Shown: piece after piece, positions 7,034 through 17,279 of the stretch | Position numbering within the stretch: position 1 is the first letter of the stretch | Layout: each line of letters starts with the position of its first letter | Source of the DNA: Nitrososphaerales archaeon | GTDB taxonomy: Archaea; Thermoproteota; Nitrososphaeria; Nitrososphaerales; Gagatemarchaeaceae | Direction: 5' to 3' | Length of the DNA stretch: 32,278 bases | NCBI GenBank assembly: GCA_014874415.1 | Contig: JACWAI010000071.1 | Coordinates: 1 to 32,278 of the forward strand | Program-made: the position numbers and the translations under genes | Notes under the pieces: generated by a model | The model's database searches: none | Told to the model about the DNA's origin: nothing | Seen by the model: the letters and a program-made list of their open reading frames with translations, nothing else

Positions 7034-7607
7034 AAAAGACCCCGGCCGGCCAAGCGGCGCCCCGCTCAGTTCTGACCGTCACCTCCTCCCTCCCGGCAGC
7101 CACCGAAGCCGTCAGGTCAGAGAGAGCAGAGATTGACCTGCTTGTACTCCCTCTAGTGAACCCTTCACGCCTGTACATCGACAGGATGACGGCCTTGCCG
7201 TTCGTCTTGGCAAAGAACGATAGGCTGGCCACAGCGAAGGTGAGCTTCCGGCTCCTCGGGCTCCCGTCTTCCAGTGAAATCAAGTGAAACAAGCTGTTGA
7301 GGCTGTCGATTATGACCACCTTCTGCTGGGTTTCGAACAGGGCGGAGAACTCGCCTTCTACGTCCACCCCGGGTTCGGGGACCCTGATTATTGTCTCCCT
7401 GACGGCGGAGGCAGCGGTCCCCGAAAAGATTCGGTCCGCGTTGGATGAGTAGAACGCATCGAGGTCGACGATGGCGCACGGAGCCAGGAGGGACATTACC
7501 GTGCGGGCGAAGGCAAGATTGGACCTCCTGTCTTCCAGGATGAAGGTCGACGTCTTCCCGACCAGAGGGGACAGGAATGACTGCGCCTGCTCCCCGCTAA
7601 AGCTCAT
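7017..7607 (-). CDS. RecA/RadA-like protein lacking the P-loop
   Basis: 196 residues from the ATG at 7607. The order of segments looks like a RecA-fold core: a first strand TSTFILEDRRSN where a Walker A loop should be, CAIVDLDAFYSS, then KVVIIDSLNSLFHLI as a good Walker B strand (hhhhD followed by S.N), then GKAVILSMYRREG and a C-terminal pair of strands (TASVAAGREEVTVRTERG), as in RadA/KaiC-type ATPases. No GxxxxGK[ST] is present, so ATP binding of the usual kind is unlikely. This resembles inactive RecA paralogues that serve as partner subunits. It is divergent, by 35 bases, from a RuvC-like gene, and its end overlaps the membrane protein by 17 bases. The assignment rests on fold-pattern reading only. 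Confidence 0.65.
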   Translation of the reverse strand: MSFSGEQAQSFLSPLVGKTSTFILEDRRSNLAFARTVMSLLAPCAIVDLDAFYSSNADRIFSGTAASAVRETIIRVPEPGVDVEGEFSALFETQQKVVIIDSLNSLFHLISLEDGSPRSRKLTFAVASLSFFAKTNGKAVILSMYRREGFTRGSTSRSISALSDLTASVAAGREEVTVRTERGAAWPAGVFSIRCP

Positions 7608-7642
7608 TAGTCCAGCCCGGGTCGACTCCCTCGGTATTTCAA

Positions 7643-8263
7643 GTGAACCGGATATGCGTGGCCACTTCCGAGGCCAGAGCATACTACGCGCTGGTCTCGA
7701 GGCTGAGACGGGCCGGCCTCCCTTTCTCAAGCGCCCTTCCCGACTCGAATCTGGACGAATGCGACCTGGTCCTCACCACGGCGGATGAAGCGGGACGCTT
7801 TAGCCAGAAGGCGCTCACACTGGAGAGCCTGGACGAAAATCCCGGGATTTTCAAGGGTCAGATTGTTTCGCAGCTGACGGGACGGAGCGATGTCATCCTG
7901 GTGGGGGTCGACCCGGGGAAGAGGACCGGACTCGCCGTCTTCTATGGTCAGACGAAACTGGCGTTCAACACATTCGACTCGGCTGGGGCGGTCTGCTCCC
8001 GGGTGGGAGCCTTCGCCAGGGGGGTCCCTGCGGACAGGCTGCTCGTCAGGGTAGGCAACGGGAACAGGTTGATGGCGGCCAGGCTTGTCGACGCACTGAG
8101 GAAGGAGGTCCCCGAGGCCACCGTCGAGATCGTGGACGAGTCCGGGACTTCGGCCGGAAGCTCTAAAATGAAAGGAGTGCAGAGAGATCAGGTAGCCGCC
8201 GCCAAGATCGCCTTCCGGAAGGGGGAGGTGGTCAGCCTTGGGGCGACCAGAACTCACGGCTGA
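7643..8263 (+). CDS. RuvC/YqgF-like RNase H-fold protein
   Basis: 206 residues from a GTG start. The first 80 residues form a small alpha/beta region (ICVATSEARAYYALVSRLR). The rest reads as a RuvC/YqgF-type RNase H fold. ILVGVDPGKRTGLAVF (Asp90) is the first strand with the DPG motif. VRVGNG (about 135-140) and VEIVDESGTS (Asp165, Glu166) resemble the YqgF DERxTS strand, and RDQVAAAKIAF (Asp182) is the final helix carrying the last acidic residue. These acids could form a metal site, so a nuclease or junction-resolving role is plausible but unproven. It lies back-to-back with the P-loop-less RecA-like gene and overlaps the end of the XPD-like helicase gene by 32 bases, placing it in a DNA-repair neighbourhood. 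Confidence 0.7.
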   Translation: MNRICVATSEARAYYALVSRLRRAGLPFSSALPDSNLDECDLVLTTADEAGRFSQKALTLESLDENPGIFKGQIVSQLTGRSDVILVGVDPGKRTGLAVFYGQTKLAFNTFDSAGAVCSRVGAFARGVPADRLLVRVGNGNRLMAARLVDALRKEVPEATVEIVDESGTSAGSSKMKGVQRDQVAAAKIAFRKGEVVSLGATRTHG

Positions 8264-10091
8264 AAGACTCGATGGAGCCGGGAGTCATGTCCCCGACGAC
8301 GAGGTCTCTCTTGAGCCAGGACGGCATCAGCTCTCTCGCGGCAGCCGAGCCGAACCTCTCGTCCAGAAAGAACACCAGCCCCCGCTTCCCCGGGCTTCTT
8401 ACATGCCTCCCGGCGGCCTGGAACGCCTTGCGTAGCGCAGGCAAGCGCGAGAGCATGAGATACGAGTCTTTCTCGCCGGCGCGCTTGAGGCAGGCGTACT
8501 CTGCGTACATCATGGGGGACGGAGGTGGGAGGGCAAGGCCGATCACCACCACCGCATCCATGGCCCCGCCGTCGAAGTCTTCGCCCTCCGAGAACCTCCC
8601 CCCCTGGACTGCGAAGAGGACGGAGTCGTCGGCCGACCTGAACGAGTCGAAGATCTCTTCGGCCTGTTCGTTGGAGAGCCCGGGAGCTTCGGATACCAGA
8701 CGCCTGCCCGCGACCTTCTTCGACACCAGCTCGAAAATCGCACCCAACACGGCATAGGAGGGAGCGAAGACTCCGACGCCGCCGCTGGTTGAGCCGATCA
8801 CGGCGGCAACCCTCTCTGAAATCTTGTCGTACATCTGGGGAGTCCGCAGCTTGTAGCGGGTCGACGTGCCGTTGTCCACGGCCGTCCTTACAGACACCAG
8901 GGGCTCTGTTGAAGCGTCGTAGGTCTGGATGCTTTCGGGCGCCAGGCCGAGGGACCTGGCGAAGACGCTCGACGGGCTGATCGTGGCCGAAAGGAGGACG
9001 GCGCTTCTGAACTCGCTCAGGTGCTCGGCCAGGCCTCTTACAGGGTCGGGATCCACCAGGCCCAGGGTGCTCTCCCACCTGACGAGCATGGGGCGGGTCG
9101 ACGACGTCAGTCGGACCAGGAACTCCCCCACCCGCAGGATTAGAGATGGAAGCTTCCTCTCGTATACGACGGAGCCCCAGGCCGCTCCCGAGCTGGCGCT
9201 GAGCTCGAACGCCAGGTTCTGGAGCCAGGGGGAGCCGTGGGCGTCCCGGAACATGTCTATGACGGCTCCCCTGTCAAGCAGCCACCCCTGCCGCTCTGCC
9301 ATCAGCTGCTCGACGGTCCGCAGCAGCGAATGGAGCGAGACGGCCGCCTCTTCCATCATCATTGCCTCGGCCTCCCTGGCCGCCCCTCTGATCTGGTCCA
9401 GCGAGAGGGTGGCGGAGTTGAGCCCCCTGAAAAAGTCCCTCAGGTTGTGAGCCTCGTCGGCGACCAGCAACGTCTTCCTCCTGTCGACCGAGTTACGGTC
9501 GAAGAGCACGGGCATGGCTTTGGGGTCGAAGGCGTACTGGTAGGGGACCACGGCCACCTCTGCCCTGGCCATCACAAGCCTCGCGACTTCGTAGGGGCAG
9601 ACATGGGCGCCTTCGGACTTCCTAATCAGGTCCGAGTGGCGCGGAGTCTTCAGGGACACCTCGTCGGCCAGGCGGTCGAACTCTTCGGTGAGGGTGATGT
9701 TGAGGAAGTACGAGCACAGGTTGTTGCTGACGTTGAACGAACAGTACCACCCGAATGACTCCTGGGGGATTGCTCTCTGGCGCCTGAGGAGACAGTAGTC
9801 GAACTTGGAGAGCATCGAAGCCGCCCTGAAGGGGTGCCTCGCCTGGAGCCTGGAAATCTCCTCCACCACCCTGTTGATCTGGCGCTTCGTCCTGCACGCA
9901 TAGACCACCCTGCAGCCTGTCTCTTCGGCCGCGGACAGGGCCCCGGCGAGCACGGCGGCGGTCTTCCCAAAACCGCTCATCGCCTCGGCGATCAGCGTCC
10001 CGCCGTCGATGCATGCTTCGTACACCCGCTGGGCCAGCTCTCTCTGCCCGGGGCGGAAGGTGTCATAGGCGAACCTCCCTTCTATTGCCAC
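8232..10091 (-). CDS. XPD/Rad3-like Fe-S DNA helicase (superfamily 2)
   Basis: Predicted 5'-3' helicase of 619 residues. Motif I is AMSGFGKT (Lys43), motif Ia RTKRQINR (about 67-74), and motif II is DEAH (212-215). Between motifs I and II are four cysteines, Cys100, Cys117, Cys126 and Cys165, at the position of the XPD 4Fe-4S cluster. The C-terminal half has LSATISP (motif III/IV area), GVGVFAPSY, QGGRFSEGEDFDGGAMDAVVVIGLALPPP (motif V, typical of XPD) and QAAGRHVRSPGKRG, which matches the motif VI QA.GR..R sequence. A TATA-like box lies about 24 bases before the ATG. Homologues take part in nucleotide excision repair or recombination. The clustering with the RecA-like and RuvC-like genes fits repair. 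Confidence 0.92.
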   Translation of the reverse strand: MAIEGRFAYDTFRPGQRELAQRVYEACIDGGTLIAEAMSGFGKTAAVLAGALSAAEETGCRVVYACRTKRQINRVVEEISRLQARHPFRAASMLSKFDYCLLRRQRAIPQESFGWYCSFNVSNNLCSYFLNITLTEEFDRLADEVSLKTPRHSDLIRKSEGAHVCPYEVARLVMARAEVAVVPYQYAFDPKAMPVLFDRNSVDRRKTLLVADEAHNLRDFFRGLNSATLSLDQIRGAAREAEAMMMEEAAVSLHSLLRTVEQLMAERQGWLLDRGAVIDMFRDAHGSPWLQNLAFELSASSGAAWGSVVYERKLPSLILRVGEFLVRLTSSTRPMLVRWESTLGLVDPDPVRGLAEHLSEFRSAVLLSATISPSSVFARSLGLAPESIQTYDASTEPLVSVRTAVDNGTSTRYKLRTPQMYDKISERVAAVIGSTSGGVGVFAPSYAVLGAIFELVSKKVAGRRLVSEAPGLSNEQAEEIFDSFRSADDSVLFAVQGGRFSEGEDFDGGAMDAVVVIGLALPPPSPMMYAEYACLKRAGEKDSYLMLSRLPALRKAFQAAGRHVRSPGKRGLVFFLDERFGSAAARELMPSWLKRDLVVGDMTPGSIESFSREFWSPQG

Positions 10092-14123: not shown

Positions 14124-14741
14124 CTAGTCCTGTGCACCGATCAGGTCGAGGAACACCGCTGGAGCTTCTCCAATGGTCCACGTGTCATGCCCCGGCCGTA
14201 CGTCGAAGGCGTCTCCGGGCCCCACCTCCAACTTCGTGCCGTCCTCCATCAGGAACCCCATCCGCCCTGAAATCACGTATCCTGTATGGTGGACCTCGCA
14301 GGTTCTTGTGTTCGCCAACTGTTTCATGGAGGTCGTCCATCTCCAGCCTGGCTCGAGCGTCCTGAGCCCCATGGTGAACCCCCCCACCGTGACGAGCTGC
14401 AGTTTCGCCTTCGGGGTGACCTTCGTCTGATCGGGATTGTTCACGTTCGCCTTCGCAGCCGACAGCTCGATCGCTTCCTTCCCCCTCTTCGTAATGCGGA
14501 CGACCACCCTAGTGTGGCCTTTTTCGCTGGTGACCCCGATCACCCTGTTCCCGCTCTTCTTCGCCCAGTTCCTTACGTCGGTCTCGATTGTGGGTTCCGT
14601 CGCGTCAAGCTCGATGACGTCCCCCAGTTTCGCCTGGCGCCAGGCCTTGAAGAGATCGATCATCGGAGTCGGAGGGCACCAGATGCCTTCGGATTCGACC
14701 TTGATGTATGCGGGCTGGCGGAGCGCGTTTTTCGTTTGCAT
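14124..14741 (-). CDS. TusA-cupin fusion protein
   Basis: 205 residues joining two domains rarely seen together. Residues about 12-80 are a TusA/SirA sulfur-carrier domain: GIWCPPTP with the acceptor Cys22, then MIDLFKAWRQAKLGDVIEL and a C-terminal strand HTRVVVRITK. It lines up along its length with the stand-alone TusA at 15432, except for one extra residue in the motif (CPPTP versus CPGP). Residues about 110-205 are a cupin barrel: ARG-rich linker, LRTLEPGWRWTTSMKQ, CEVHHTGYVISGRMGF (candidate metal-binding His pair) and VGPGDAFDVRPGHDTW (second cupin motif). The frame extends 17 codons upstream, but the ATG at 14741 lies 28 bases from a good TATA box. It is divergent from the DsrE2-TusA-SQR operon. 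It may bind a persulfide on Cys22 for oxidation or sensing by the cupin. Confidence 0.85.
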   Translation of the reverse strand: MQTKNALRQPAYIKVESEGIWCPPTPMIDLFKAWRQAKLGDVIELDATEPTIETDVRNWAKKSGNRVIGVTSEKGHTRVVVRITKRGKEAIELSAAKANVNNPDQTKVTPKAKLQLVTVGGFTMGLRTLEPGWRWTTSMKQLANTRTCEVHHTGYVISGRMGFLMEDGTKLEVGPGDAFDVRPGHDTWTIGEAPAVFLDLIGAQD

Positions 14742-14765
14742 CAGATTGGGAAGGGCGTCGACCTG

Positions 14766-14773
14766 CTTAAAAG
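14766..14773 (-). promoter_or_regulatory. TATA-like box for the TusA-cupin gene
   Basis: The minus strand reads CTTTTAAG, centred about 28 bases before the ATG at 14741. It supports that internal ATG over the longer frame. Confidence 0.55.
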
Positions 14774-14878
14774 AACGGGAGATGATTTTCACTGTTGATA
14801 ACGGCGGGATATGGGATCCTAGTCCTTCGCCTGACTAATAGGACCCAGACATTTTCCAACTTTGAGAATCGACTTCGC

Positions 14879-14887
14879 GCTTTATTA
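14879..14887 (+). promoter_or_regulatory. TATA-like box for the dsrE2-tusA-sqr-arsR operon
   Basis: The plus strand reads gctttattag. Transcription would start about 25 bases later, near 14910, which is on the palindrome at 14903-14912 and about 12 bases before the TTG start of the DsrE2 gene. Recognised by pattern and spacing only. Confidence 0.4.
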
Positions 14888-14902
14888 GCACATTAGAATC
14901 CG

Positions 14903-14912
14903 CGAATATTCG
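14903..14912. promoter_or_regulatory. Perfect palindrome, candidate operator of the sulfur operon
   Basis: CGAATATTCG is a perfect 10-base inverted repeat, with one further matching pair two bases out on each side. It lies where the predicted transcription start of the DsrE2 operon falls, a usual place for a repressor. The operon ends with an ArsR-type regulator gene, so self-regulation is a reasonable guess. Confidence 0.4.
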
Positions 14913-14921
14913 TGAGCTGGA

Positions 14922-15422
14922 TTGGCACAAGCAACGCAACTTAGGACCGAAGAGAAGGCAGAGCAGACGGAGAGGATGATGATCGTCCTGTCCAAGGGGA
15001 CGATGGACATGGTGTATCCCGCCCTGATGATAGCCACAACGGCGGCCACCATGGGGAAGGAGGTTCACATGTTCTTCACCTTCTGGGGACTACAGGCGGT
15101 GAACAAGAAGAAAGTGGGCTCGCTGAAGGTGGCGCCCGTGGGCAACCCAGGCATGCCGATGCCCAACATACTAGGCATGATCCCTGGCATGACAGCCATG
15201 GCCACCAGGATGATGAACGGGAAGATGAAGAAGCAGAAGATGCCTTCAATCCCCGACATGTTCAAGATGGCGAAGGACTTGGGAGTCAAGCTGCACGCCT
15301 GCTCCACGACGATGGAGGTCATGGGAACCCCCAAGGAGGCCCTCATCGACGAAATCGACGATATTATCGGGGCAGCCACGTTCATCTCGCTGAGCGAAGG
15401 CGGGCAAATCATCTTCATCTAG
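14922..15422 (+). CDS. DsrE2-type sulfur carrier protein
   Basis: 166 residues of the DsrE/F-like DsrE2 family, whose archaeal and bacterial members pass protein-bound thiosulfonate or persulfide sulfur. MMIVLSKGTMDMVYPALMIATTAATMGKEVHMFFTFWGL (about 19-57) is the first strand-helix-strand unit. A Met/Gly/Pro-rich hydrophobic segment (about 78-105) is typical of DsrE2, and LHACSTTMEVMG carries the only cysteine (Cys127), the expected sulfur-binding residue. The TTG at 14922 is the start; ATG codons at residues 19-20 would cut the first strand. It is the first gene of a tight cluster, followed 9 bases later by tusA. Confidence 0.88.
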   Translation: MAQATQLRTEEKAEQTERMMIVLSKGTMDMVYPALMIATTAATMGKEVHMFFTFWGLQAVNKKKVGSLKVAPVGNPGMPMPNILGMIPGMTAMATRMMNGKMKKQKMPSIPDMFKMAKDLGVKLHACSTTMEVMGTPKEALIDEIDDIIGAATFISLSEGGQIIFI

Positions 15423-15431
15423 GCGATCGAG

Positions 15432-15680
15432 ATGGCAACAGTAGAGCAACACAAAGTGATCGACTCCCGGGGAAGCTTCTGTCCGGGACCCATCACCGAC
15501 CTCTTCAAGGCATACAGGAGTTCTCAGCTCGGAGACATCATCGAACTCTTGGCGACCGACCCTGCCGCCAAAGCCGACGTCACGGCATGGGCGCAGAAGA
15601 GCGGGAACGAGCTGGTGGACATCATAGATGAACAGGACTACACCAGGATCGTAGTCAAGATCACCAAGAAAAGGAGCTAG
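15432..15680 (+). CDS. tusA: TusA-type sulfur carrier
   Basis: 82 residues with the canonical SFCPGPITDLFKAY motif; Cys17 accepts the persulfide. The remaining beta-alpha-beta fold (LGDIIELLATDPAAKADVTAW, then TRIVVKITKK) is complete. Similar residues along the length to the TusA half of the divergent cupin fusion suggest duplication inside this locus. It lies 9 bases after the DsrE2 gene and 8 bases before the flavoprotein gene. In sulfur oxidisers TusA and DsrE2 hand sulfur to one another; in other organisms TusA serves tRNA thiolation. The neighbours favour the former. Confidence 0.92.
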   Translation: MATVEQHKVIDSRGSFCPGPITDLFKAYRSSQLGDIIELLATDPAAKADVTAWAQKSGNELVDIIDEQDYTRIVVKITKKRS

Positions 15681-15688
15681 ACACGGCC

Positions 15689-16948
15689 ATGCAGAGGGTG
15701 GTCATCGTCGGCTCAGGCGACGGAGGGACTTTCACCGCCAACCTCCTGGCTTCGGAGCTACGGGATGAAATCCATGGGGGGCTCGCTTCGGTCCAACTGG
15801 TCGGCGAGCACCTCCACCATCCGTTCCAGCCTGGGAACCTGGATATCGCGTTCAAGGGCGCGTCCCCTGACAAGTACGTGAAAGAAGAGACCGAGCTCCT
15901 CAGAAAAGACGTCGAGTTCATCCAGGATCCGGCGGTGAAGATCGACTTCAAAGCGAAGTCTGTGTCCACGAAAAGCGGCAGGACGCTGACCTACGACTTC
16001 CTGGTGATCGCCACTGGTGCGGTCCCCGACCCGTCGAAGGTCCCGGGCCTGGCCCAGGGAGCCTTGAACTTCCACACAGGCGGGAAGGACTCCCAGCGCA
16101 TCTGGGAGTCACTACAGACCTTTGATGGAGGGACCGTGATCGTGGCGATAGCCGGAACGCCGCACAAGTGCCCCCCGTCTCCCAACGAGGCTGCTTTCAT
16201 GCTGGACGAATTCTTCCAAAAGCGCGGAATCAGGGACAAGGTGAAGATCAAGTTCCTGACGCCATACCCCAGGCCCTATCCTGCTGAGAAGATCTCCAAG
16301 GTCGTCGAACCGATGTTCCAGGAAAAGGGCATCGAGGTCTCGACCTTCTTCAACGTAGACTCCGTTGACCCTGCGGAGCGGAAGATCTACTCCCTCGAAG
16401 GAGAGGCTTTCCACTACGACCTCCTCATCGCGATACCCCCTCACCATGGAGCCGATGTGATAATCGACTCGGGCATAGGGGACCAGGAAGGCTACGTCCC
16501 CACGGACAAGGGCATGATGAAGGTGCAGGGGCAGGTTGGGGTGTACGCCATCGGGGACGCCACCAACATCCCCGTCTCGAAGTCGGGGGTCGTGGCGCAC
16601 CTGCAGTCCGTGGTGGTCGCGCACAACATCGTGGCGGAAATGCAGCAATCCTCCGACATGCTGGAATACAACGGCAGGATAAACTGCCCCATGGAGGTTG
16701 GGGCCCGTAAGGCCATCTTCGTCTCTGCCACGTACTCATCGCCCCCCGTGGACCAGACCCCTTCGACGATAAAGTACTTCATGAAGAGGTCTTTCGCCAT
16801 GATCTACTGGAGGGCGTTGAACGGGAGCCTGGAGAGGATGTTCGATCTGTTCTTCGGCCAGACGAGGTTCCCGGTCAAAGACAAGCCAGAGCCGCAAAAG
16901 CAGGTCGTCGAAGTGAAGGCTGCGCTGGGTGAGAAGAAAGTTGCATGA
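15689..16948 (+). CDS. Sulfide:quinone oxidoreductase-like flavoprotein
   Basis: 419 residues of the two-dinucleotide-binding flavoprotein family that includes SQR and flavocytochrome c sulfide dehydrogenase. The FAD motif is VVIVGSGDGGTFTANLL (about 4-20), with a second signature in DFLVIATGAVPDP (about 103-115) and VYAIGDATNIP (about 285-295). The protein has only two cysteines, Cys161 in HKCPPSPNEA and Cys333 in INCPMEVG, positions that match the redox pair that takes up sulfide. The C-terminus has an amphipathic, aromatic region (YFMKRSFAMIYWRALNG) suited to membrane attachment. It should oxidise sulfide and pass electrons to quinone, leaving sulfane sulfur for TusA/DsrE2. The end overlaps the ArsR gene by 20 bases. 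Confidence 0.88.
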   Translation: MQRVVIVGSGDGGTFTANLLASELRDEIHGGLASVQLVGEHLHHPFQPGNLDIAFKGASPDKYVKEETELLRKDVEFIQDPAVKIDFKAKSVSTKSGRTLTYDFLVIATGAVPDPSKVPGLAQGALNFHTGGKDSQRIWESLQTFDGGTVIVAIAGTPHKCPPSPNEAAFMLDEFFQKRGIRDKVKIKFLTPYPRPYPAEKISKVVEPMFQEKGIEVSTFFNVDSVDPAERKIYSLEGEAFHYDLLIAIPPHHGADVIIDSGIGDQEGYVPTDKGMMKVQGQVGVYAIGDATNIPVSKSGVVAHLQSVVVAHNIVAEMQQSSDMLEYNGRINCPMEVGARKAIFVSATYSSPPVDQTPSTIKYFMKRSFAMIYWRALNGSLERMFDLFFGQTRFPVKDKPEPQKQVVEVKAALGEKKVA

Positions 16949-17279
16949 AATCGCCGATCCAGAAGAGGAGCTATACCGGCTCCAGGCAGACTTCTGCAAG
17001 GGCATGGCGCACTCCACGAGGATCCACCTCCTGAGGTCGCTGAAACAGGGGGAGAAGACGGTCAACGAACTGGCCAGGCTGGTCGGTGTCACGCAGGCGA
17101 ACGCTTCCCAGCACCTGGCCATCCTCAGGCAGTTCGGCCTCCTCAACACCCGGCGGGACGGCTCCAGCATATACTACAGCATCAGCGACCACAGGATCAT
17201 AGAAGCGTGCGAGCTAGTGAGGGGCTGCATCGGCGAGAGGCTCAGGAAGGAACAGATGGTCCTGAAAGTGCCGCTCTGA
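16929..17279 (+). CDS. ArsR-family regulator, probable sulfur sensor
   Basis: 116 residues with a winged helix: LLRSLKQGEKTVNELARLVGVTQANASQHLAILRQFGLLNTRRDGSSIYYSI is a standard ArsR helix-turn-helix and wing. Three cysteines lie outside the recognition helix: Cys23 in the first helix (DFCKGMAHSTR), and Cys94 and Cys100 in the last helix (EACELVRGC). The canonical arsenic-site ELCVCDL is missing. Dithiol ArsR repressors such as SqrR and BigR sense persulfides through cysteines in comparable outer helices, so a sulfide-linked role is likely but inferred. The start is GTG at 16929 (or TTG at 16941), within the flavoprotein gene. The next gene converges after 6 bases. Confidence 0.88.
   Translation: MRRKLHEIADPEEELYRLQADFCKGMAHSTRIHLLRSLKQGEKTVNELARLVGVTQANASQHLAILRQFGLLNTRRDGSSIYYSISDHRIIEACELVRGCIGERLRKEQMVLKVPL

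Follow-up and report, generated by a model that had tools for sequence, protein, structure and literature searches.

A gene that joins a TusA sulfur-carrier domain to a cupin barrel is found in the window, the whole stretch of 32,278 nucleotides analysed here, from an archaeon of the family Gagatemarchaeaceae. It lies divergent from a dsrE2-tusA-sqr-arsR operon whose genes probably oxidise sulfide. Both domains of the fusion are under purifying selection, and alignments indicate that both of its candidate sites, the TusA loop and the cupin site, bear changes specific to the fusions. The likeliest function proposed for the protein is that of a specialised sulfane-sulfur carrier or processor, in which the cupin domain would accept or process sulfur from its own TusA domain. 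This proposal is tentative, being plausible rather than probable.

Gene organisation and domain assignments

All five genes (the fusion, dsrE2, tusA, sqr and arsR) were confirmed at the coordinates first given for them (Table 1), so the divergent arrangement described in an earlier note on this DNA stands. In the domain search which that note had suggested, the N-terminal half of the fusion matches TusA (PF01206) with 42.9 bits against a cut-off of 28.6, over residues 40-99 of the 222-residue open reading frame. The C-terminal half matches Cupin_2 (PF07883) with 23.4 bits, under the cut-off of 27.2, over residues 168-217; here the barrel is backed by structure prediction and Foldseek. Scans with Pfam and NCBIfam profiles found no DNA-binding or signalling domain in the fusion.

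The mechanical open reading frame of the fusion begins at a GTG at 14792 and has 222 codons, 17 more than the 205-residue protein. This frame is probably too long, since the fusion's promoter element overlaps the GTG start, and the 17 extra codons differ from those of genome G024 at 5, 6 and 7 first, second and third codon positions, which is no codon-position bias. The ATG is thus the likely start, as the earlier note had chosen in naming a protein of 205 residues with its carrier at Cys22. Residue numbers of the longer frame are converted by subtracting 17 (Cys39 is Cys22).

In the operon, DsrE2 matches PF13686 with 141.5 bits (cut-off 25) and its NCBIfam equivalog with 122.5, below 210, while the stand-alone TusA scores 64.5 bits. 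The SQR-like protein, noted earlier as a two-cysteine flavoprotein, has two cysteines by eye and a Pyr_redox_2 match of 66.4 bits. Its best NCBIfam match is type III SQR, at 305.3 bits against a cut-off of 525, the model being a selenoprotein subtype. The regulator matches HTH_5 with 49.4 bits and HTH_metalloreg (NF033788) with 82.6 bits, above the cut-off of 55; as a BigR-type sensor it scores 53.1 and misses the equivalog cut-off of 155. It has one cysteine in the N-terminal part and another near the C-terminus; of the 10 ArsR rows aligned, 8 keep both. No persulfide dioxygenase gene (pdo) is found among the ten window genes scanned around the operon.

Table 1. Features of the fusion locus and the divergent operon, in positions of the window
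Feature	Position	Strand	Details
TusA-cupin fusion gene	14124..14741	-	205 aa; likely start ATG 14741
Cupin domain	14133..14441	-	residues 118-220 of the 222-aa ORF
TusA domain core	14496..14678	-	carrier Cys39 (Cys22, codon 14676-14678); fusion-specific loop W-C-P-P-T-P
Promoter element of the fusion	14767..14802	-	degenerate palindrome, about 10 nt, TATA-like TTTTAA
Promoter element of the operon	14852..14887	+	palindrome TTTTCCA-N4-TGAGAATCG, about 10 nt, TTTATTA
dsrE2	14922..15422	+	166 aa; TTG start; single Cys (count by eye); DsrE2B-like
Stand-alone tusA	15432..15680	+	82 aa; CPGP motif
SQR-like flavoprotein gene	15689..16948	+	419 aa; two Cys (count by eye)
ArsR-family regulator gene	16929..17279	+	116 aa

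Linkage and promoter elements in the family

The host is a soil archaeon, a group I.1c thaumarchaeote. Absence of the fusion from every relative was named beforehand as a refutation of the idea; instead, 5 of the 46 family genomes carry an intact copy and one further genome a decayed one. Values of dN/dS between the window and genomes G024 and G067, at a dS near saturation, are about 0.11-0.16 for the TusA half and 0.03-0.10 for the more constrained cupin half. Recurrence in five assemblies and these low values rule out an assembly artefact and show that the fusion is more than a chance event.

Four of the five copies lie less than 3 kb from the operon, in three arrangements. The operon is present in four of the five fusion genomes versus 9 of the 41 others (Fisher p 0.018, kinship ignored). 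Nevertheless, neither needs the other, since the fusion is missing from 9 of the 13 operon-bearing genomes and G067 carries the fusion without the operon.

The operon-type element, a palindrome followed by a TATA box, precedes all four operon-linked fusions. Direct search found no inverted repeats in the intergenic stretch, and the degenerate palindrome of the window is visible only by comparison. A 36-column matrix anchored on a 20-column Gibbs motif was used, because the shorter motif had settled on a half-site plus the TATA box. This matrix gives the fusion's element a score of 20.4, which places it in the top 16 of 448,816 windows scored. The shared element and the linkage tie the fusion to the SQR-like operon.

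The element is not confined to these genes. With up to 3 mismatches, 12 genomes have 5-18 forward and 4-23 reverse matches each (palindromes being counted on both strands), against 0-6 each for the reversed-pattern control; the window's own genome has 10 and 10 against 4 and 3, a modest excess. The element also precedes genes for glutamate dehydrogenase, POR, flavodoxin and ferritin, as well as five operons that have no arsR match beside them. These matches do not support the local ArsR as the owner of the palindrome, which is at most a candidate for its operator.

The two candidate sites

TusA proteins carry sulfur on the cysteine of a CPxP loop. The carrier cysteine is kept in all five fusions, where the loop reads CPPTP, with one inserted residue and with the cysteine and prolines kept. 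This form occurs in none of the ten operon TusAs, all of which have CPGP. Like the solved relative 1pav (Ta1170/Ta1414), the fusion has its carrier cysteine starting the first helix; it differs from the TusA/SirA family in the insertion and in the C-terminal cupin. The TusA halves form one clade (support 100/98), placed among TusAs of the SQR-operon type.

The AlphaFold2 model, built from a 72-row alignment with a mean pLDDT of 89.2, supports a cupin barrel. It supersedes a poor prediction from four fusions alone (mean pLDDT 66.1). The linker has low pLDDT and the pTM is 0.65, so that the arrangement of the two domains is uncertain. The cupin's PDB relatives by sequence are all weak matches (best E 0.018). 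By structure, the best Foldseek matches in the PDB are cupins, and the top ones are metal cupins of the TM1459 type (1vj2 and variants), which share the barrel fold at an E of 2.4e-06 at best. Residues His54 and His58 of TM1459, mutated according to PDB entry titles, have the same spacing as Cys165 and His169 of the fusion. The fusion differs from TM1459 in having a cysteine in place of one ligand histidine, in the attached TusA domain, and in sequence (18-20% identity).

By its sequence, the cupin half belongs to a large and widespread orphan family whose members have a cysteine-containing site. The motif of this family is Cys-x3-His...His-Asp-x-Trp, and its residues Cys165, His169, His202, Asp203 and Trp205 (Cys148, His152, His185, Asp186 and Trp188 of the 205-residue protein) are invariant in 56 of 56 stand-alone cupins and in all five fusions. 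The 56 rows comprise 53 of the 78 cupins from loci L036-L113 and 3 from further relatives. This invariant set and its residue spacing suggest a Cys/His/His metal site (Cys148/His152/His185), unlike the three-histidine site of thiol dioxygenases. Residue 143 is leucine in the fusions versus arginine or lysine in 55 of the 56 stand-alone cupins. The cupin halves of the fusions form one clade (98), beside a stand-alone cupin from the same family.

Possible functions of the fusion

In the proposed mechanism, SQR would make sulfane sulfur, and DsrE2 and TusA would pass the sulfur on. The TusA domain of the fusion would pick it up on Cys22, presumably as a persulfide, and transfer it to its own cupin domain. 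There it would be accepted or chemically processed at the predicted metal site. Oxygenation dependent on O2 is possible.

The role of carrier or processor is supported by the linkage to the operon, the co-occurrence with it and the shared promoter element, and by the kept carrier cysteine, the single clades, the low dN/dS, the invariant residues, the predicted barrel with its metal-cupin matches, and the fusion-specific changes at both sites. Known systems provide a further argument. PMC9918477 describes the yrkD...sqr-pdo sulfide-detoxification cluster of B. licheniformis, which combines SQR, DsrE-like and TusA carriers, a repressor and a persulfide dioxygenase. The window operon shares the SQR, the carriers and a regulator with it, and differs in that the regulator is of ArsR type and the ten scanned genes lack the dioxygenase. 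The same paper describes CstA of S. aureus, whose gene fuses DsrE, RHOD and TusA homologues and is clustered with sqr and pdo. In CstA and in the YeeE-YeeD chain (PDB 8k1r), a sulfur carrier is fused to a partner, as here, where the partner is a cupin. Metallosphaera cuprina shares archaeal DsrE2 and TusA carriers with the window, but its dsrE3A-dsrE2B-tusA genes are linked to hdr genes (PMC4175335). There, DsrE3A and TusA carried thiosulfate from tetrathionate, and neither glutathione persulfide nor polysulfide reacted with them.

Several observations count against a role as carrier or processor. These are the operon genomes without the fusion and G067 without the operon, the uncertain domain arrangement, a metal site predicted from residue spacing, and the promoter element's occurrence before unrelated genes, with a modest excess over the control in the window's own genome. 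In addition, of the 190 Pfam families encoded beside stand-alone cupins, none of the 25 most frequent is a sulfur-transfer family, and the window's TusA and DsrE2 have no match in any of the 78 stand-alone loci. The neighbour scan covered 141 of 145 nearest neighbours and left out 135 second neighbours; two very long ORFs (L044, L104) and two L095 rows with coordinates equal to those of L094 were dropped.

Another model, rather unlikely, is a self-contained persulfide dioxygenase, in which iron in the cupin would oxidise the Cys22 persulfide to sulfite and fill the place that PDO has in bacterial sqr-pdo operons. The lack of a pdo among the ten window genes scanned and the invariant candidate site are consistent with it, and three of the five genomes with the fusion, namely G003, G024 and G033, combine the operon with no AprA match over the cut-off. 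However, both the fusion and AprA are absent from six operon genomes, of which G011 and G028 are less than 70% complete, and the cupin family elsewhere has no visible link to sulfur. Thiol dioxygenases (CDO, ADO/PCO) have a three-histidine iron site with an HxH motif. The HxH half is missing from the fusion, because a cysteine stands at the second ligand place, and the fusion has no Pfam or NCBIfam match to these enzymes at E 0.001; membership was rejected. The earlier note had counted persulfide dioxygenases among cupin folds, which is not borne out: the ETHE1 type has a metallo-beta-lactamase fold, according to PMC4383860, and the fusion has no Lactamase_B match at E 0.001. The interpretation in that note is partly supported, by the conserved fusion, its linkage to the SQR-like operon, the shared element and the candidate metal site. 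Literature searches found no cupin-fold persulfide dioxygenase of this kind among the texts surfaced, no naming of a TusA-cupin fusion in titles or abstract openings, and nothing for a DsrE2-TusA-SQR-ArsR persulfide gene cluster. The specific claim of a one-protein unit whose Cys/His/His iron site oxidises the persulfide of its own TusA domain is doubtful.

Alternately, the cupin may bind a small ligand or metal and control sulfur loading or hand-off without catalysis, acting as a sulfur-state sensor or gated carrier. Many single-domain cupins are ligand binders; the fusion is preceded by a promoter element of its own, and most genomes with the operon lack it, which would suit an accessory gene. 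This role is unlikely, given that no DNA-binding or signalling domain was found and that both candidate sites are conserved among fusions yet differ from those of related proteins, a pattern expected of an enzyme that has changed.

Cupins often form dimers, and the TusA half falls among TusAs of the operon type, so the cupin might be a mere dimerisation scaffold for a duplicated TusA; the retention of all five motif residues in every fusion and the stronger constraint on the cupin half make this improbable. Least probable is biosynthetic thiolation, with the TusA domain giving sulfur to a cofactor or metabolite in the cupin pocket: thiolation of tRNA and cofactors is another role of TusA proteins, and the cupin differs from stand-alone ones at residue 143, but the SQR-like operon is linked in most fusion genomes.

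Sulfide oxidation yields reactive sulfane sulfur that needs carriage and disposal, and a carrier joined directly to a barrel that may bind metal would be a compact solution. With a chemistry proposed from sequence and model, the fusion points to a new means of dealing with reactive sulfur, and it gives experiments a way into a large, unassigned cupin family with a cysteine-containing site. If the dioxygenase model were true, a cupin-fold enzyme of soil archaea would take the place of the metallo-beta-lactamase-fold persulfide dioxygenase that accompanies SQR in bacterial operons, and the orphan family would gain a first function. Together, the fusion and the operon suggest that little-known soil thaumarchaeotes handle sulfide.

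Domain make-up and spread of the fusion

The genome that holds the window is archaeal, with 1.69 Mb in 114 contigs and a completeness of 91.56%. The closest named relatives of its fusion gene share 73% identity (thaumarchaeote assembly REEA66) and 67% identity (Candidatus Gagatemarchaeum stordalenia) with it, and from them the family is taken to be Gagatemarchaeaceae (group I.1c). Pfam scores bear out the layout described in the earlier note, a minus-strand TusA-cupin gene facing plus-strand dsrE2, tusA, an SQR-like flavoprotein and ArsR. The main domain of each plus-strand product lies above its cut-off, as does TusA in the fusion (42.9 bits, cut-off 28.6). Only Cupin_2, against the C-terminal stretch of the fusion, falls below (23.4 bits, cut-off 27.2).

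The mechanical reading frame of the fusion begins at a GTG and has 222 residues. An operon-type promoter element overlaps it, and its 17 extra codons show no coding pattern, with 5, 6 and 7 sites at codon positions 1, 2 and 3 differing between the window and another carrier genome, G024. The GTG start is therefore improbable and the ATG is the likely start. This restores the 205-residue protein with carrier Cys22 that had been proposed; other residue numbers below follow the 222-residue frame.

Coordinates of the features discussed
Feature	Locus	Position	Strand
TusA-cupin fusion, from ATG 14741	window	14124-14741	-
GTG of mechanical reading frame	window	14792	-
Operon-type promoter element overlapping that frame	window	14767-14802	-
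TTCTCA-N4-TGAGAA element	window	14852-14887	
dsrE2-tusA-sqr-arsR operon	window	14922-17279	+
Decayed island	L119 (genome G017)	8494-9694	
Decayed stand-alone cupin	L134 (genome G527)	7139-7917	
Stand-alone cupin in long frame	L073	3238-3570	
Sulfur gene cluster	L129 (own genome, contig 71, 33000-48000)	3571-11715	

The fusion is not absent from every relative, which the earlier note had named as a refutation: both domains match in 5 of the 46 genomes of the family Gagatemarchaeaceae (G000, G003, G024, G033 and G067). Among the matches listed for 400 genomes of the class, these five included, and for 398 of the phylum, a partly overlapping sample, there is no additional genome with both. A collection of 84,980 species genomes was scanned with two peptide patterns, so that differently built fusions would escape, and 254 loci encode a relative. 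The best 80 comprise 2 fusions, both from Gagatemarchaeaceae, and 78 loci, spread over many bacterial phyla and further thaumarchaeotes, that match the cupin half only. None of the open-licence PMC papers listed mentions a TusA-cupin fusion in its title or abstract opening, and for Sulfolobus A20 the cupin gene described near sre is separate (PMC5127849).

Genome G017 holds a decayed island. A fusion copy in two pieces lies beside an SQR end and an open arsR frame, with the promoter element retained (score 33.7) and several flanking genes of the window still in order.

The TusA halves of the five fusions form one clade (bootstrap 100, SH-aLRT 98) among TusAs of the SQR-operon type. The cupin halves likewise form one clade (98), adjoining a stand-alone cupin of G035 from the same family (90, not starred), in a tree with few columns and many open forks. 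Both halves look constrained. Between the window and G024, dN and dS are 0.18 and 1.17 for the TusA half and 0.09 and 3.2 for the cupin half; against G067 they are 0.24 and 2.1, and 0.16 and 1.6, and the ratios are rough because synonymous change is near saturation and some dS values against G003 and G033 were not computable.

Linkage to the operon and its promoter

At E 0.001, 15 of the 46 family genomes have a DsrE2 match and 21 an SQR match; in 13, close matches to both are adjacent. This unit is present in four of the five fusion carriers, G067 having the fusion without it, and in 9 of the 41 other genomes (Fisher p 0.018, uncorrected for kinship). In these four carriers the fusion is less than 3 kb away from the unit, placed in one of three ways: at the operon head and divergent (window and G024), at the tail and pointing towards arsR (G003), or downstream on the same strand (G033). 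Linkage that persists through rearrangement suggests that it is under selection.

The phylum has dsrE2-tusA-sqr-arsR units in further families as well (G427, G455, G626 and G527). One of these genomes, G527, has a decayed stand-alone cupin belonging to the same cupin family, divergent from a dsrE2-tusA-sqr unit; a 135-residue frame, SnoaL-like by eye, separates the two. This one case may be an echo of the state before fusion.

The stand-alone cupins (loci L036-L113) form a large orphan family of many bacterial phyla and thaumarchaeotes, for which no assigned function was found. One lies inside a 775-codon frame whose start is 1,980 bases upstream; this may be another fusion or a chance long frame. 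Of 145 nearest neighbours 141 were scanned, and the 25 commonest of the 190 Pfam families beside stand-alone cupins include no sulfur-transfer family; any such family has at most two cases, because the last of the 25 has two members. The TusA and DsrE2 of the window matched at none of the 78 loci, and its SQR weakly at two (L078 and L111). A general sulfur role for the cupin family is not readable from gene context.

Ten operon promoters (window, L116, L117, L118 and L122-L127) carry variants of a palindrome close to TTTCTCA-N4-TGAGAAACG, some clear and others degenerate, about 10 bp ahead of a TATA-like box. Eight of them, with the window and G024 left out, gave a 36-column matrix. It places the fusion promoters among the best 15 (G003), 12 (G033), 11 (G024) and 16 (window) of 448,816 windows of family DNA that include the operon promoters themselves. 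By this matrix the G067 fusion is without the element (best score -0.1). The sole perfect consensus site in the G003 genome fronts the fusion, the consensus having been drawn by eye from sites including that one. Shared control of fusion and operon is supported by these promoter sequences.

The element TTCTCA-N4-TGAGAA, followed by about 10 bp and a TATA box, is commoner than its reversed-pattern control in each of 12 genomes. With up to three mismatches there are 5-18 forward and 4-23 reverse sites per genome against 0-6, palindromes counting twice; the window's own genome has 10 and 10 against 4 and 3. At two mismatches or fewer, the counts in G003 are 10 and 8, with 0 and 0 for the control. 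Five of ten scanned genes beside such sites have a Pfam match: glutamate dehydrogenase, pyruvate-ferredoxin oxidoreductase, flavodoxin, ferritin and a weak cupredoxin. The element is thus not restricted to sulfur genes. It fronts central-metabolism, redox and sulfur genes, and is perhaps the site of a regulator. The data give no support for control by the local ArsR, since the element fronts non-sulfur genes and five operons without an adjoining arsR match (L116, L122, L124, L126 and L127).

The cupin site and the TusA loop

A Cys-x3-His...GHD-x-W set is invariant in 56 aligned stand-alone cupins. Cys165, His169, Gly201, His202, Asp203, Trp205 and Gly208, invariant there, are kept in all five fusions. 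PGWxW is also invariant, which says little because it was the search pattern for 53 of the rows. An AF2 model of the fusion (72-row alignment) has a mean pLDDT of 89.2 and a pTM of 0.65, with low confidence at inter-domain residues ~101-110. Among PDB entries, Foldseek ranks metal cupins of the TM1459 type highest for it, with 18-20% identity. The Cys165-x3-His169 spacing equals that of His54 and His58, residues named in TM1459 mutant titles, and His202 then stands at the place of the last ligand. A Cys/His/His metal site is predicted. Leu143 is specific to the fusions, with Arg or Lys there in 55 of the 56 stand-alone cupins. The TusA half has the loop CPPTP in all five fusions, whereas none of ten operon TusAs has it, their loop being CPGP.

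Sulfur genes of the lineage and the proposed role

In a Gagatemarchaeaceae paper, sulfur words stand at two places, one a reference (PMC10640624). For Nitrososphaeria, another paper describes aprAB and dsrAB in some families and raises the possibility of sulfur oxidation (PMC10833072). The window's own genome has a cluster of HdrB- and HdrC-like proteins, DsrE, a GcvH-like protein, lipoate ligase, TusA, DsrE2, ArsR, a weakly QmoC-like membrane protein, AprB (170.2 bits, cut-off 135.65) and AprA (909.8 bits, cut-off 641.75). In this soil thaumarchaeote the cluster may represent an Hdr-like/Apr pathway of sulfur oxidation, a direction that we infer. AprA exceeds its cut-off in 5 of the 46 family genomes and is partial in G013.

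In its boldest form, a role for the fusion would have the cupin oxidise sulfur to sulfite. It would then take the place of the persulfide dioxygenase that belongs to a bacterial sqr-pdo cluster (PMC9918477). The self-contained dioxygenase of the earlier note keeps a real fusion and a candidate metal site, but the 3-His motif is missing from the fusion cupin, ETHE1 has another fold according to an extract (PMC4383860), and nine genomes have the operon without the fusion.

The most likely reading of the fusion is a dedicated carrier or processor of sulfane sulfur. SQR would produce the sulfur and DsrE2 and TusA would carry it; the fusion would receive it on Cys22 and hand it on to its own candidate cupin site. 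DsrE3A and TusA of M. cuprina carried thiosulfate and were unreactive with glutathione persulfide or polysulfide (PMC4175335), so the cargo may also be a thiosulfonate.
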